Shown piece after piece: positions 5,699-51,465 of a stretch of 58,923 bases of DNA. Origin of the DNA: a virus. Under the pieces are notes generated by a model that saw only the letters and a list, made by a program, of their open reading frames with translations, had not been told where the DNA came from and did no database searches. Within the stretch, counting starts at the first letter, position 1. The number at the start of each line of letters is the position of its first letter. Both the position numbers and the translations under genes were made by a program. The stretch covers positions 1-58,923 of IMG/VR virus record IMGVR_UViG_3300046171_000010; one strand, 5' to 3'.

Positions 5699-7548
5699 TG
5701 CCACTACGTAAGTTAACCCTACGCCCCGGTGTGAACAAAGAAGTTACACGTTATGTAGATGAAGAAGGCTGGGCTGACTGCGATAAAGTACGTTTTCGTG
5801 CTGGGTACCCCGAAAAAATAGGTGGATGGCAGCAAATATCTGGTAATACGTTCCTTGGTGTTGCACGTTCTCTATTCAATTGGGTTACGTTAGAAGGTCA
5901 AAATCTCCTTGGTGTCGGCACTAACCTCAAGTTTTACGTAGAAAAGGGTGGAGAATACTTTGATGTGACGCCTGAACGTACGCCGTCTGGTGTGTCTCTT
6001 ACTAATCCTTTTACGACTGTTTCTGGCTCTACCACTGTCACTGTTACAGATGCCAATGGAGGCTACATAAACGGTGATTTTGTCACGTTTAGCGGAGCTT
6101 CTGCTGCGGGTGGGCTGACCCTAAACGGAGAGTTTCAGATAACGTACTCTACCGGCAACACCTACACCATAGAATCAAGCAGCGCAGCTTCATCATCTGC
6201 CACTGGTGGGGGTTCTGTAACGGCAAAATACCAGATAAACATTGGCCCAGAGTTTGTTGTGCCTTTAGTTGGTTGGGGTGCTGGTGGGTGGAATGAAGGT
6301 ACATGGGGTAATGGATCTACTTCTACAGACTCTTTGCGTTTGTTTAGCCAGTCTAATTTCGGCGAAGATTTAGTATTTGGCCCTCGTGGTGACAGTATCT
6401 ACTACTGGGATGCTTCTGGAGGTCTTGAGACCCGCGCAGTAGAGCTATCTTCTCTATCGGGCGCTTCTAATACGCCAACAAAACAAAACTTTATACTTGT
6501 ATCCGATGTAAGTCGTTTTGTGTTCTGTTTTGGAGCCAATACGCTAGGTTCTGCGGTACAAGACCCCATGCTTATTCGATGGTCAGACCAAGAAGACGTT
6601 ACTAACTGGACTCCTAGTGCTACTAACCAAGCGGGTGATCTGCGTCTGTCTAAAGGTTCTGAAATAATAGGTGCGTTGCAGTCCCGCCAAGAAATACTGG
6701 TGTGGACAAACTCTGCGCTGTACGCATTGCAGTATCTAGGCGGTACGATTGTGTGGGGGTCTCAGCTTCTTGCAGATAACGTATCTATAGCTTCTCAAAA
6801 CGCTGCTTCTTTCTCGGATGGAGTCACTTACTGGATGGGGCTTGATTCCTTCTACGTATACGACGGCACCGTCAAAAACTTACCATGTGATCTAAAACGT
6901 CATGTATTTAACGATATAAACTACGAACAGATAGAACAGGTATTTGCGGGTACAAACGAAGGGTTTGACGAAGTTTGGTGGTTTTATCCGTCAGCTAGTT
7001 CAACCACTGTAGACAAGTATGTTGTGTACAACCATGCACAAGGTATTTGGTATTTTGGCAGTTTGGCTCGTTCTGCGTGGCTTGATACAGGTATTAGGCA
7101 GTTCCCTGTTGCAGCTACATACAGCAACAACTTAGTCACACATGAAGACGGTGTAGACGACAACGAAAGCGGCACAAGAGCAGCTATTACTGCATTTATA
7201 ACCTCTGGTGAGTTCGATATAGACGATGGTGACAGGTTCTCGTTTATACGCCGAGTGCTACCTGACTTGACGTTTGATGGATCTACTGCGGACAGCCCTA
7301 CAGCTACGCTAGAACTTCTACCGCTACAGTCTTCAGGTTCGGGATACAACAGCCCTGCATCAGAGGGTGGAAGCAGTAGTGGCTCCGTCGTGAGATCTGC
7401 AACAGTACCTGTCGAAAAGTACACCACACAGATAAACACGCGAGTGCGGGGCAGGCAGTTATCCATAAAGGTGCAGTCAGCAGATTTAGGCGTGCAGTGG
7501 CAGCTTGGAGCACCAAGGCTTGATATACGTCCTGATGGGAGGCGATAG
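5698..7548 (+). CDS. Structural tail protein, probable tail nozzle / DNA stabilisation protein (616 aa)
   Basis: 616 residues beginning MPLRKLTLRPGVNKEVTRY, with WADCDKVRFR and EKIGGWQ. This N-terminus is common to large tail proteins in short-tailed phages and reminiscent of beta-propeller proteins that plug the portal exit (P22 gp10 / T7 gp12 role). The sequence is beta-rich, with repeated GVARSLFNW, GTNLKFYVE and DSIYYWDAS blade-like units; residues about 100-180 form a Ser/Thr/Gly-rich inserted domain. ATG overlaps the lysozyme stop by one base. Structural role is confident; the precise name is inferred. Confidence 0.65.
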   Translation: MPLRKLTLRPGVNKEVTRYVDEEGWADCDKVRFRAGYPEKIGGWQQISGNTFLGVARSLFNWVTLEGQNLLGVGTNLKFYVEKGGEYFDVTPERTPSGVSLTNPFTTVSGSTTVTVTDANGGYINGDFVTFSGASAAGGLTLNGEFQITYSTGNTYTIESSSAASSSATGGGSVTAKYQINIGPEFVVPLVGWGAGGWNEGTWGNGSTSTDSLRLFSQSNFGEDLVFGPRGDSIYYWDASGGLETRAVELSSLSGASNTPTKQNFILVSDVSRFVFCFGANTLGSAVQDPMLIRWSDQEDVTNWTPSATNQAGDLRLSKGSEIIGALQSRQEILVWTNSALYALQYLGGTIVWGSQLLADNVSIASQNAASFSDGVTYWMGLDSFYVYDGTVKNLPCDLKRHVFNDINYEQIEQVFAGTNEGFDEVWWFYPSASSTTVDKYVVYNHAQGIWYFGSLARSAWLDTGIRQFPVAATYSNNLVTHEDGVDDNESGTRAAITAFITSGEFDIDDGDRFSFIRRVLPDLTFDGSTADSPTATLELLPLQSSGSGYNSPASEGGSSSGSVVRSATVPVEKYTTQINTRVRGRQLSIKVQSADLGVQWQLGAPRLDIRPDGRR

Positions 7549-24555: not shown

Positions 24556-25302
24556 TTAGTCGTCCCAACTATCAACAATGGCACTCAGATCGTCGTCATC
24601 TTCCTTGGGTGCGGGGGCAGATTTCTTCACGACCTTCTTGGGTTCCTCCACTTCGGAGGTATCTGGCGCATCGCCAAATATATCGTCAGAGTCATCGTCG
24701 TCTAATGCAACGTCGGTGCTCTTGGTATTGCTAGTGGTATCACTAAACGGGTTATCAGGTTGCGCTACAAAGCCACCTTCCACAACGCCAAAGGGCGAAC
24801 GTGACACCATAGGCTTGTATTCGATCACCTGCACACCGTTCAGACGTAGGCTAACGCCGTTGTCCCGCATAGAGTACGGCACAAAAGTGAAAGCAAGGTT
24901 CACGGTACTGCCGGTAGTTAACTGGAAGTCTGTTGGCAGCTTGTTGTTCTGCGCGTCAACTTGTAGCGGCGGCGTGGTCTTGTCGGTGCCGTAAGCACCC
25001 TTCAGCTTGCATTTGCCGATGTAGTTACCGTCATCGTCCTTCTTGAACGGTAGCGGGAACTTGTCAGGCCAGCTTTTCTCCTTCTTAGCCTTGTAAGCCG
25101 TAGCCATCCCCTTGTACAAGGTCTTAGCTTCCTTCTCAGACATCACGAAAGACATAGAGTATTCCGCACCGTCATCCAGTGGATCACACTTAACAGATGC
25201 ACCGTTCTTACCAGCCTTGTTATCGAACTTGTAAGTGGTGTCGAGTTTTGGGTAGAGGGCTTTTACGCCTTCAATTGTGTAGTACATAAAGTCTTCAGCC
25301 AT
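24556..25302 (-). CDS. ssb: Single-stranded DNA-binding protein (DUF2815/Enc34-type)
   Basis: 248 residues with a TAGGAG ribosome site. An OB-fold-like core has the family's features: YKFDNKAGKNGASVKC, SWPDKFPLPFKKDDDG, then KLKGAYG, VNLAFTFVPYSM and GVSLRLNGVQVIEY. The final 70 residues are a disordered acidic tail ending DDDDLSAIVDSWDD, as in SSBs that recruit polymerase and helicase through an acidic C-terminus. It protects ssDNA at the phage fork. It lies between a Cys-rich protein and the primase-helicase. Confidence 0.8.
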   Translation of the reverse strand: MAEDFMYYTIEGVKALYPKLDTTYKFDNKAGKNGASVKCDPLDDGAEYSMSFVMSEKEAKTLYKGMATAYKAKKEKSWPDKFPLPFKKDDDGNYIGKCKLKGAYGTDKTTPPLQVDAQNNKLPTDFQLTTGSTVNLAFTFVPYSMRDNGVSLRLNGVQVIEYKPMVSRSPFGVVEGGFVAQPDNPFSDTTSNTKSTDVALDDDDSDDIFGDAPDTSEVEEPKKVVKKSAPAPKEDDDDLSAIVDSWDD

Positions 25303-26674: not shown

Positions 26675-28216
26675 TTAATCAAGTATTTCTTTGTAAAGAT
26701 CAATAATTTTTGTATGTGTGTCTATTTTGTTATCTAGTAGTGCGTACACACGTTTTTCTATGTGAGATCCTTGTAGCTGTACCACCGTACACTTGTGATC
26801 TTGCCCCGCTCTGTGAATACGTGCGTTGGCTTGAGCATATGTTTCTACCGAACTGGTTGGCCCCCACCACACGATTGTGTTTGCAGCAGTCAGCGTAACG
26901 CCGTGTGCCGCAGCCTGTGGCTGTATGACCAGCACTCGTGGGCTGTCAGTCTCTTGGAACTCTTTGAATATGCGCGTGCGTTCAGTCGCACTGACTGCGC
27001 CGCTGATGACCTCGGTGGGTATCTTGTCTTTGCGTAGCTTCTCGGAAAGTAGCTGTATTGTGTGTTTGAACGGCACGAAGATCAGGACTTTCTTGCTGGA
27101 CTCGTCAATCACCTCACGCAACACCTTGTATCGGTGCTTGATGTCGAACTCCACTACCTCTTTGTCGTCGGTATACACCGCCCCAGAACTGATTTGTAGC
27201 AGCTTGTTCATGTTTACCGCCGCCGTAGCTGCCGTGACTGTCTCTTCAGCAGCTTCCATGACCATGCGGTTCTTCAATTCTTTGTAGTATTTATCTTGCT
27301 GGCGGGTCAGCGGTACCTCGCGAGTTGTGTATATGATGTCAGGTAGATCAAGACACTCTTCCTTGGTGAACCGTATCGCTGGCTGTAAGGCACTGAACAC
27401 TGTCTCCGTGGCGTTGGGCTTAGGCACCCACTTGAAGTTAGTCACTTTGACCATGACCTGATCGCGGAACGAGCCAAAGAAGCGTGGCACAGCCTTCGGG
27501 TTAACGAGTTTAGCCAGCCCGTACGCATCCAACGGACTCTGTGCAGCAGGGGTACCCGTCATCATCCAGAGCCATTTGTCCGGCCCAAGTAGCCTGTTGA
27601 GTGTTTTCCAGCGGTCAGTTTGTGCGTTCTTGTAGTGAGTTGCCTCGTCCACAATCACTAGGTCAAACCCACCGTTGGCTATGGCGTCCGAGACGATTGC
27701 CACACCGTCATAATTTATTATGACAAACTCTGCATCGCCTTCGATTACAGCGGTTCTTTTCTTTGCTGAACCGTGGGCTATATCTACCTTGCGGTGCATG
27801 GCAAAGCTGAACAGATCCTCTCGCCACGCTGAATCCATAATAGATAAGGGGCAGATGACCAGAGCACGCTTGATACGGCCTTGCTTCATCAAGAAGTCTG
27901 CCGCCCAGATAGCACTGGCGGTCTTACCCGTACCCTGTTCGTTGAAGCAGAACGCACGTTTGTTGAGTGTCAGAAACCCAGATGTAGTCTTCTGGTGCTC
28001 AAATGGTTTGTACTTACCCGTCCACTGATACTGCCCTTCGATGGGTGACGGTGCATGGATGTCGAGATTCTTGAGTACATGAGCCTCGTCTACCCCCCAG
28101 TTAACCACCACACGGTTACCTGATAACTCCTTACTCTTTGGTATTACGTCGGTAACTTTTGCTGGATCACGTAGCCGCAGTAGAAGCGCCTTGTTGTCTA
28201 TGACTTTCACTTCCAC
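26675..28216 (-). CDS. SNF2-family DNA helicase/translocase (513 aa)
   Basis: All main superfamily II motifs are visible: Walker A EQGTGKT (93-99), ICPLSIMDSAW (Ia), VDEATHYKN (II, DEAT at 190-193), MMTGTP (III, 219-223), VLVIQPQAAAHGVTLTAAN (V) and ANARIHRAGQ (VI). Length matches compact phage SNF2-like enzymes, which are common with family A polymerases and VRR-NUC nucleases. It remodels or unwinds DNA in replication or recombination. The ATG lies in a 10-base overlap with the small gene upstream. Confidence 0.88.
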   Translation of the reverse strand: MEVKVIDNKALLLRLRDPAKVTDVIPKSKELSGNRVVVNWGVDEAHVLKNLDIHAPSPIEGQYQWTGKYKPFEHQKTTSGFLTLNKRAFCFNEQGTGKTASAIWAADFLMKQGRIKRALVICPLSIMDSAWREDLFSFAMHRKVDIAHGSAKKRTAVIEGDAEFVIINYDGVAIVSDAIANGGFDLVIVDEATHYKNAQTDRWKTLNRLLGPDKWLWMMTGTPAAQSPLDAYGLAKLVNPKAVPRFFGSFRDQVMVKVTNFKWVPKPNATETVFSALQPAIRFTKEECLDLPDIIYTTREVPLTRQQDKYYKELKNRMVMEAAEETVTAATAAVNMNKLLQISSGAVYTDDKEVVEFDIKHRYKVLREVIDESSKKVLIFVPFKHTIQLLSEKLRKDKIPTEVISGAVSATERTRIFKEFQETDSPRVLVIQPQAAAHGVTLTAANTIVWWGPTSSVETYAQANARIHRAGQDHKCTVVQLQGSHIEKRVYALLDNKIDTHTKIIDLYKEILD

Positions 28217-28392
28217 AACTCCATAGACAGATCTATGCCATACTTTTTCAGTTTCTTTCTGGCCCTAGCGATGTCTATATCCGTAAGATCTTCAGGTTCT
28301 TTGTCGTATGATATAGCCACCAGCGCCACCTCATGGATATACTGGATAGCATCTTCTTCGTTTTCAAAATCGTCTTTGTGTTTGACTTTCAT
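28207..28392 (-). CDS. Hypothetical protein (61 aa), first gene after the structured leader
   Basis: Starts MKVKHKDDFENEEDAIQYIH with an AAGGGT ribosome site. Acidic and helical throughout, no motif recognised. It is the first gene downstream of a terminator-like hairpin and the structured RNA region, and overlaps the SNF2 helicase start by 10 bases, so it is translationally coupled to the helicase. Confidence 0.6.
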   Translation of the reverse strand: MKVKHKDDFENEEDAIQYIHEVALVAISYDKEPEDLTDIDIARARKKLKKYGIDLSMELWK

Positions 28393-28408: not shown

Positions 28409-28441
28409 AAAAAAGCGCGAAGTGGGTGTCCACTACACGCG
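28409..28441 (-). terminator. Terminator-like hairpin just upstream of the helicase operon
   Basis: On the minus strand CGCG (28441-28438) pairs with CGCG (28419-28416), enclosing a further AGTGG/CCACT stem, and is followed by C and TTTTTT (28414-28409). It ends 17 bases before the ATG at 28392. Placed between the RNA structures and the coding region, it could be the 3' end of a separate small RNA or an attenuator for the helicase operon. Confidence 0.6.
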
Positions 28442-28461
28442 GTTAAAAAATGGGGCAGGGC

Positions 28462-28644
28462 AACAGGGTTAGCCTGTTCCGAGCATCCGGCTGAGACCCC
28501 TTATCACTAAAGGGTCATACCCCGAAAAGCCCCGCCTTTTGGCGCACGGACGGGAACGTGCTGTTTCAGGGATGGAGTTCCCTTGCCAACTCCGCCTTTG
28601 GGCACGAGGACGGAAACTCGCAAGGAGGGAGTGTGTAGTCTCCC
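28462..28644 (-). ncRNA. Structured RNA region with tandem covarying motif
   Basis: Two copies of one RNA fold, on the minus strand. Copy B (28625-28581): closing stem CCUUGC/GCAAGG, stem CGAG/CUCG with loop UUUCCGUC, then GCC-CAAA-GGC. Copy A (28571-28520): closing stem CCCUGAAA/UUUCGGGG, stem GCACG/CGUGC with loop UUCCCGUC, then GCC-AAAA-GGC. Stem sequences differ but pairing is kept, while loops are nearly identical. Loop CCGUC could pair with the following GGCGG as a pseudoknot. Further hairpins lie at 28627-28644, 28495-28516 and 28462-28478. Three stems need U-G pairs that would be C-A mismatches on the plus strand, so the RNA is minus-strand. No named family is recognised. Confidence 0.65.
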
Positions 28645-28649
28645 TGCCC

Positions 28650-28681
28650 AAAAAAGTCCCAGCTTCGACCACACGGCTGGG
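28650..28681 (-). terminator. Rho-independent terminator after the polymerase/nuclease operon
   Basis: Minus-strand hairpin CCCAGC (28681-28676) / GCTGGG (28663-28658), 12-base loop, then AC and TTTTTT (28655-28650). It lies 28 bases after the stop of the small membrane protein gene and directly before the structured RNA region. Confidence 0.75.
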
Positions 28682-28709
28682 GCGTGCCAACAGGCAGGAA
28701 TGCCTCGGT

Positions 28710-28811
28710 CTAATACATCATCATCAAAGTGAGAAGAAAAGACAGTAGATAGATCGTCATAATTATACCTACGCCGATCAGTATGCCTGTCTTCACCTCA
28801 TCCTTACTCAC
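28710..28811 (-). CDS. Tiny single-span membrane protein (33 aa)
   Basis: GTG start overlapping the stop of the upstream gene (GTGA), after a run of purines. Product: MSKDEVKTG followed by an uninterrupted hydrophobic helix (ILIGVGIIMTIYLLSFLLTL) and MMMY. The overlap only makes sense if the upstream HNH-like gene is read in its +1 frame, which supports both. Function unknown; single-span phage peptides often act on host membrane proteins or as small toxins. Confidence 0.5.
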   Translation of the reverse strand: MSKDEVKTGILIGVGIIMTIYLLSFLLTLMMMY

Positions 28812-50846: not shown

Positions 50847-50915
50847 TACTGTATAAGTAGCTTATCCCTGACAGGTGCATCCCGTGCCTGACACTAGCCA
50901 AGACAGGAGATACTC

Positions 50916-51465
50916 ATGGCTAATACGACGTTCAACGGCCCAGTCCGTTCGGAAAATGGCTTCACTGTAGTTTCAAAAAATGCCACTACTGGCGCTATAA
51001 CAGACGTTGCAAACATTGCCTCTACCGGCATTGTTACTGACAAATACATCAAGCATGTTGGCTTCGCTACAGGCGTAACGGTTAACACCACCGCTGGCGA
51101 TAGTCCCTCTATTGGTGAGTTTACTCAGCCTGCAAACACGATCATCACTGACATCAAGATCTTCTGTGATACCTCGCCAGTTATTGGTACAGGTGACATT
51201 GGTTATGAGGTTGGCACATCTAGCTCCGGCGCACAGATCGTTGCGGCAGTGACCTGATGAGATCCTAGACGGCGGCACGACTGTTGTAGAGCACAACGTA
51301 ACCACAACAACGCTTGTGGCTCAGACTCAAAGCGGTACTACGGCTCCTGCTTCTGTTCAGTATACTTCTGCTGCAAGAACTATTTTCTGCAACATTACTA
51401 ATACTGTTGATGCAACTACCGCTGGTTCTTTTACGTTCATTATTGAGTACGTTCAGATAGCGTAA
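50916..51465 (+). CDS. Structural protein, split by an apparent +1 frameshift at ACC-TGA
   Basis: AGGAGA ribosome site; MANTTFNGPVRSENGFTVVS starts a head/tail-surface protein family common in marine phages. The frame stops at ACC-TGA (51252-51257); shifted +1, it continues DEILDGGTTVVEHNVTTTTL and ends SFTFIIEYVQIA at 51465. Together about 182 residues with a uniform Thr/Val/Ser-rich beta composition, so one protein was probably intended. This is the same direction of frame change as the large terminase. Confidence 0.65.

Follow-up and report, generated by a model that had tools for sequence, protein, structure and literature searches.

The non-coding stretch at 28495-28644 of the window (the whole piece of viral DNA analysed here, 58,923 nucleotides, IMG/VR record IMGVR_UViG_3300046171_000010) had been read in the initial annotation as a tandem, covarying RNA motif of no named family. 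The locus raises the questions of which structure is actually selected there, how widely it occurs among phages, and what it does in the message that carries it. Our analysis assigned it to an unnamed phage RNA family outside Rfam 15, represented in the window by an array of three units; its structure is near certain, and a function is proposed tentatively.

A structure descriptor, a parser compared with shuffles and a covariance model agreed that the array consists of three units arranged head to tail on the minus strand (Table 1). A unit of the family spans roughly 60-70 nt and forms a three-way junction, in which P1 (4 bp) encloses the hairpins P2 (variable) and P3 (5-6 bp), and a pseudoknot of 6-7 bp arises from pairing of the P3 loop with the strand immediately 3' of P1. 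In most units P3 adjoins the 3' strand of P1 directly, and 3-4 nt (usually GAA or AAA) then precede the pseudoknot strand. The typical consensus is GACC-A-AGG(P2)CCU-GUUA-GCACG-UUCCCGUC-CGUGU-GGUC-GAA-GGCGGGA-CUWWUU. For each window unit, none of 200 dinucleotide shuffles matched the observed descriptor score, and the originally annotated stretch folded better than its own dinucleotide shuffles (z -3.66). The covariance model R1, whose seed consisted of nine natural units from other contigs and contained no window unit, recovered all three units of the array (E 6e-13 to 7e-7); no other place in the window scored above 8.4 bits. The parse of the divergent unit A beat 200 of 200 shuffles; orthologues of this unit were found in four loci (L041, L042, L121 and L122), and its pseudoknot is wholly different, with CCCAGC/GCUGGG in place of CCCGUC/GGCGGG.

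Table 1 Positions of the array units, their helices and the neighbouring features in the window
Feature	Positions	Strand	Sequence or evidence
Unit A (5'-most, divergent)	28653..28710	-	R1 32.8 bits, E 6.9e-7; absent from seed
Unit A P1	28710-28707 / 28670-28667	-	GACC / GGUC
Unit A P2	28705-28701 / 28696-28692	-	
Unit A P3	28687-28683 / 28675-28671	-	GCACG / CGUGU
Unit A pseudoknot	28681-28676 / 28663-28658	-	CCCAGC / GCUGGG, then ACUUUUUU
Unit B	28590..28649	-	R1 36.5 bits, E 7.4e-8 (38.4 bits in whole-record search); parse
Unit B P1	28649-28646 / 28603-28600	-	GGGC / GCCC
Unit B P2	28644-28640 / 28631-28627	-	
Unit B P3	28621-28617 / 28608-28604	-	GCGAG / CUCGU
Unit B pseudoknot	28615-28609 / 28596-28590	-	UUCCGUC / GGCGGAG
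Unit C	28530..28588	-	R1 56.2 bits, E 6.2e-13
Unit C P1	28588-28585 / 28543-28540	-	UGGC / GCCA
Unit C P2	28583-28579 / 28572-28568	-	AGGGA / UCCCU
Unit C P3	28561-28557 / 28548-28544	-	GCACG / CGUGC
Unit C pseudoknot	28555-28549 / 28536-28530	-	UCCCGUC / GGCGGGG
Terminator-like hairpin	28409..28442	-	CGCG..GUGG-ACA-CCCAC..CGCG + T6; by eye; in close relatives too
First ORF downstream of array	28207..28392	-	61 aa, no Pfam match; overlaps helicase start
SNF2-family helicase	26675..28216	-	513 aa; Pfam SNF2-rel_dom 1.7e-22, Helicase_C 3.2e-17

Several elements of the initial annotation were recovered in this architecture. The two adjacent copies sharing loop UUYCCGUC and GCC-NAAA-GGCGG gave two matches with none expected, the loop being that of P3; the inner stems CGAG/CUCG and GCACG/CGUGC, which differ in sequence and keep their pairing, are P3 itself; and the suggested pairing of the loop CCGUC with the downstream GGCGG(R) was borne out as the pseudoknot. 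The copies are indeed in tandem, but there are three of them and not two, the additional 5'-most unit lying at 28710-28653. The proposed interval opens within unit B and leaves out unit A together with the 5' strand of unit B P1. Conservation does not extend to the closing stems CCUUGC/GCAAGG and CCCUGAAA/UUUUCGGGG: they join neighbouring units, and relatives with reordered or single units lose one partner, as in L031, L110, L121 and L041. The supposed GCC-NAAA-GGC hairpin is divided between two helices, since its GCC is the 3' strand of P1, pairing with an upstream GGC, and its GGC is the start of the pseudoknot strand. Of the 151 non-redundant units, 147 retain P1 with all four pairs, compared with 109 that could form the 3-bp hairpin. 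The drawn secondary structure, with its closing stems, hairpin and two copies, was therefore not supported and was replaced by a three-way junction with a pseudoknot, present three times.

The selection of this fold was assessed in an alignment of 39 units in register, several of them from closely related contigs. In this alignment 96.8% of the pair cells are standard, a percentage that is raised because the units were aligned, with N padding, according to their individual parses. Two-sided changes were found in 22 of 25 pairs, including five of the seven pseudoknot pairs, and all four helices covary. Cells with a double change numbered 159, against 35.7 expected (sd 5.2) when partners were shuffled and 11-20 when the structure was slid, both controls being computed on the same alignment. 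Among 3,221 pair cells of the 151 non-redundant units, 387 are G-U and only 23 are A-C cells of the kind that read as G-U on the opposite strand. The selected form is therefore the RNA of the minus strand, as had been proposed, and this is the strand that codes for the neighbouring genes. The part of the initially suggested check that concerned homologues with compensatory changes was run and passed decisively, and the model and pair changes strongly support a tandem, covarying, selected RNA structure on this strand. The folded structure of the unit family is near certain.

Outside the helices, strong conservation is limited to three places: an AA that precedes the pseudoknot strand (86-89%), the first U of the loop (97%) and, two bases past the pseudoknot, another U (91%, a figure biased by the search pattern). 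The patterns used for gathering loci prescribe part of the P3 loop and of the pseudoknot strand, so that conservation there and in the following CU is inflated. P2 and its loop vary freely, the pseudoknot can be replaced by other sequences (GCUGGG, CGGGGCU), and no convincing further covarying tertiary contact was found across units. This near freedom of sequence argues against a ligand-binding core and for a role of shape. A riboswitch with tandem aptamers for a small molecule is thus considered very improbable. The position in 5' UTRs or between cistrons, the tandem copies, and the three-way junction with a pseudoknot would suit it, but almost no unpaired nucleotides are conserved, P2 with its loop and the pseudoknot sequence are free to change, and no pathway is common to the downstream genes. 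The trinucleotide UCC is enriched in the P2 loop region (69 of 151 units, against 21% in shuffled sequences). A P2 loop acting as an anti-Shine-Dalgarno was also considered; CUCC/UUCC is no commoner in units adjoining a Shine-Dalgarno sequence than in inner units, and sequestration was not supported.

Loci of the family were gathered from relatives of the helicase and with two DNA patterns, and the counts are lower bounds. At least about 200 viral-contig loci were found, with at least 284 model matches (105 + 179). The 166 arrays listed comprise 98 singles, 49 doubles, 17 triples and 2 quadruples. When whole records were searched, 22 of 34 had matches, and the matches of each record were clustered in one place. 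The source contigs may be largely marine. The model gave no match in four isolates with related helicases, and three array queries gave no DNA match (BLAST) in isolated phages. In bacterial genomes, 20 pattern hits were obtained in 257 Gb, which is near a rough chance estimate of about 15. An exception among them is a MAG contig (L312), which carries two true units beside phage-like genes; another hit (L320) apparently lies within coding sequence and was taken as false. In six loci (L170, L173, L174, L182, L191 and L194), a divergent unit lies upstream of the helicase. Its pseudoknot is shifted (AGCCCC pairing with GGGGCU), and a mere few nucleotides separate the end of the 3' strand from the Shine-Dalgarno sequence. 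Remoter relatives could be within reach of a model based on this unit type.

In the window, a small ORF that lies behind a PD-(D/E)XK nuclease gene is the upstream neighbour of the array; on the other side, about 135 nt separate the end of the array from the start codon of the 61-aa ORF. The same replication block also contains a DNA polymerase A gene and a candidate T7-type single-strand-binding protein (SSB) gene (24556-25302). Unit C and the terminator-like hairpin are separated by a segment of approximately 90 nt (28440-28526, minus strand) that is rich in inverted repeats (GACCCUUUAGUGAUAAGGGGUC, AACAGGCUAACCCUGUU). This segment is present in the close relative L042 and absent from L041, and is therefore an optional insertion in the same leader. 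Elsewhere in the window, a Mu-gpT-DE RNA (RF03012, 70.4 bits) was found at 50866-50918 on the plus strand, directly 3' of the Mu gpT-like capsid gene, as that family predicts.

Across the family, the arrays mostly lie between co-directional genes: among non-redundant arrays, the upstream gene was co-directional in 80 of 91 cases and the downstream gene in 75 of 87. A Shine-Dalgarno sequence and start codon follow within 40 nt after 51 of 103 terminal units; the corresponding figures are 2 of 48 for inner units and 9% for random positions. In those 51 terminal units the start codon lies 10-31 nt past the pseudoknot, with a mode of 15-19. The genes downstream belong to about 30 unrelated families, among which the SNF2-family helicase is the commonest in the collected set; the others include small HTH-like proteins, accessory proteins without assigned function, and one protein that looks like a DNA cytosine methyltransferase. 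A 72-aa protein (LSLNARTRNCLGGRGIEYVSDLAEWTAKDIHNINGLG...) found downstream of arrays in L127, L128, L129 and L149 resembles, by eye, the C-terminal domain of the RNA polymerase alpha subunit.

The placement of the arrays would also suit a translational operator, in which an RNA-binding protein of the phage or of its host, perhaps a phage single-strand-binding protein, would bind the pseudoknot and block the adjoining ribosome-binding site; T4 gp32 acts in this way on the message that encodes it. Half of the arrays place the pseudoknot 5' of a Shine-Dalgarno sequence, this phage has an SSB candidate, and there is a precedent in T4/RB69 gene 32, where a pseudoknot precedes an AU-rich ribosome-binding region of lesser structure (PMC535899). 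However, about 30 unrelated downstream genes would have to share one regulator, and such a diversity of genes argues against a gene-specific operator. Terminal units away from ribosome-binding sites are also common, the spacer before the Shine-Dalgarno sequence is as a rule 5-8 nt and not a long cooperative-binding tract, and the only array of the window (28710-28530) lies away from the SSB-like gene. An operator is thus regarded as unlikely, though next in probability to the favoured reading given below. An operator of the gp32 type would place a pseudoknot ahead of the SSB gene's own ribosome-binding site; this arrangement was looked for in the window and was not found.

Control of transcription, either by a cis-acting antitermination RNA or by attenuators that end transcription through the pseudoknot strand and a U-tract, was also weighed. 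A precedent for the former is the put RNA of phage HK022, a cis-acting structured RNA of phage early operons, which consists of two stem-loops and is not known to contain this pseudoknot. U-rich stretches often follow the units, and in the window the terminator-like hairpin sits between the array and the next gene, although a consensus terminator scan did not flag this hairpin. In two contigs the array directly follows a Cro-like HTH gene (L050, 4863-5081; L024, 6701-6949), the position at which lambdoid phages have early antitermination sites. On the other hand, only 27-35% of units have a run of at least four U no further than 8 nt from the pseudoknot, inner and terminal units not differing clearly, and many arrays abut a ribosome-binding site and leave no room for a terminator. 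The scarcity of U-tracts argues against a terminator, and the intrinsic type, a GC-rich hairpin followed by a U-tract, was rejected for the units. Transcription control as a whole is considered less likely than an operator.

The arrays might instead mark the boundaries of movable gene cassettes, at which accessory genes are exchanged, and be selected mainly as recombination or expression boundaries. In agreement with this, a nine-member cluster of accessory proteins of 363-456 aa follows arrays in unlike phages (L041, L116 at 6070-7161, L070 and L097), and unit types are reordered between phages (A-B-C versus X-C-B). The member in L116 had no tblastn match among isolated phages. Covariation of the stems and the pseudoknot, however, requires selection on a folded strand, for which recombination alone is insufficient, and the asymmetry of G-U and A-C cells indicates that RNA and not DNA is selected. 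The boundary reading is therefore judged decidedly unlikely.

With a ligand-binding core, a terminator and a gene-specific operator disfavoured, and with the helix order resembling that of exoribonuclease-resistant RNAs (xrRNAs), a role in insulation or protection is favoured. We infer, tentatively and at a little less than an even chance, that the element acts in cis on the mRNA through its shape, most likely by insulating or protecting the downstream message. The folded unit would be a compact mechanical plug that shields the downstream start site from upstream RNA. If the polycistronic transcript were cut or attacked from its 5' side, by a 5'-3' exonuclease of the RNase J type or by RNase E entering in a 5'-end-dependent manner, the unit would protect the downstream message, by analogy with xrRNAs, behind which a 3' product survives. 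Repetition of the unit in tandem would make the arrangement more robust, and the AU-rich spacers, both those that separate units and those that precede the Shine-Dalgarno sequence, would remain unpaired. Against protection stands the fact that about half of the terminal units, that of the window array included, have no adjoining ribosome-binding site.

The element was not found in a literature search of open-licence papers. It represents a widespread structured RNA of uncultured phages, situated ahead of many unrelated phage genes, and its conserved, xrRNA-like shape makes it testable whether a folded RNA alone can control or protect the messages of bacterial viruses. If this were true, bacterial gene expression would also gain a compact insulator or stabiliser.

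As the initial annotation had stated, the units belong to no named RNA family: Rfam 15 gave no gathering-threshold match to any of them, xrRNA models included. The best permissive hit was the xrRNA model of no-known-vector flaviviruses, on the opposite strand with an E-value of 2; an EGFOA hit (12.9 bits, E 8.9) was taken as chance. Nearest in kind is STAXI (RF01728), a tandem pseudoknot from Enterobacteriales near genes of DNA-handling proteins, with no function assigned (PMC2864571). The resemblance, that of tandem pseudoknot repeats, is in kind only: the UUCG tetraloops of STAXI are not a feature of the phage units, and its covariance model matched none of 15 records at E<=10. The operator of T4/RB69 gene 32 is likewise a pseudoknot in a phage mRNA 5' of a ribosome-binding site, but it is a single pseudoknot of about 28 nt with a less structured tract of more than 40 nt and serves one gene (PMC535899), whereas the phage units are three-way junctions that occur in tandem and precede many genes.

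The class-1 flavivirus xrRNAs share with the phage units the P1-P2-P3 order of the three-way junction, the pairing of the P3 loop with a strand 3' of P1, a short linker, and often tandem copies. The second contact of xrRNAs, between nucleotides of the 5' end and the three-way junction, was looked for, and no convincing covarying contact between the 5' flank and the junction was found in phage units. A ring around the 5' end, as in xrRNAs, is therefore hypothetical, and the family, whose likeness is one of topology, was not filed as an xrRNA. The phage units also differ in mostly having no junction nucleotides between P3 and P1, in a P2-P3 junction of usually 3-6 nt, in a pseudoknot of 6-7 bp, and in their position 5' of genes in DNA-phage messages, whereas xrRNAs lie in the 3' UTR. 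The class-1 flavivirus xrRNAs act as mechanical roadblocks, and one of them has been reported to block bacterial RNase J1 as well (PMC5760640). It is conceivable, though we would not call it likely, that DNA phages possess a natural exoribonuclease-resistant RNA, whose tandem pseudoknots would have converged with flavivirus xrRNAs, blocking 5'-3' decay or RNase E entry and defining stable processed messages.
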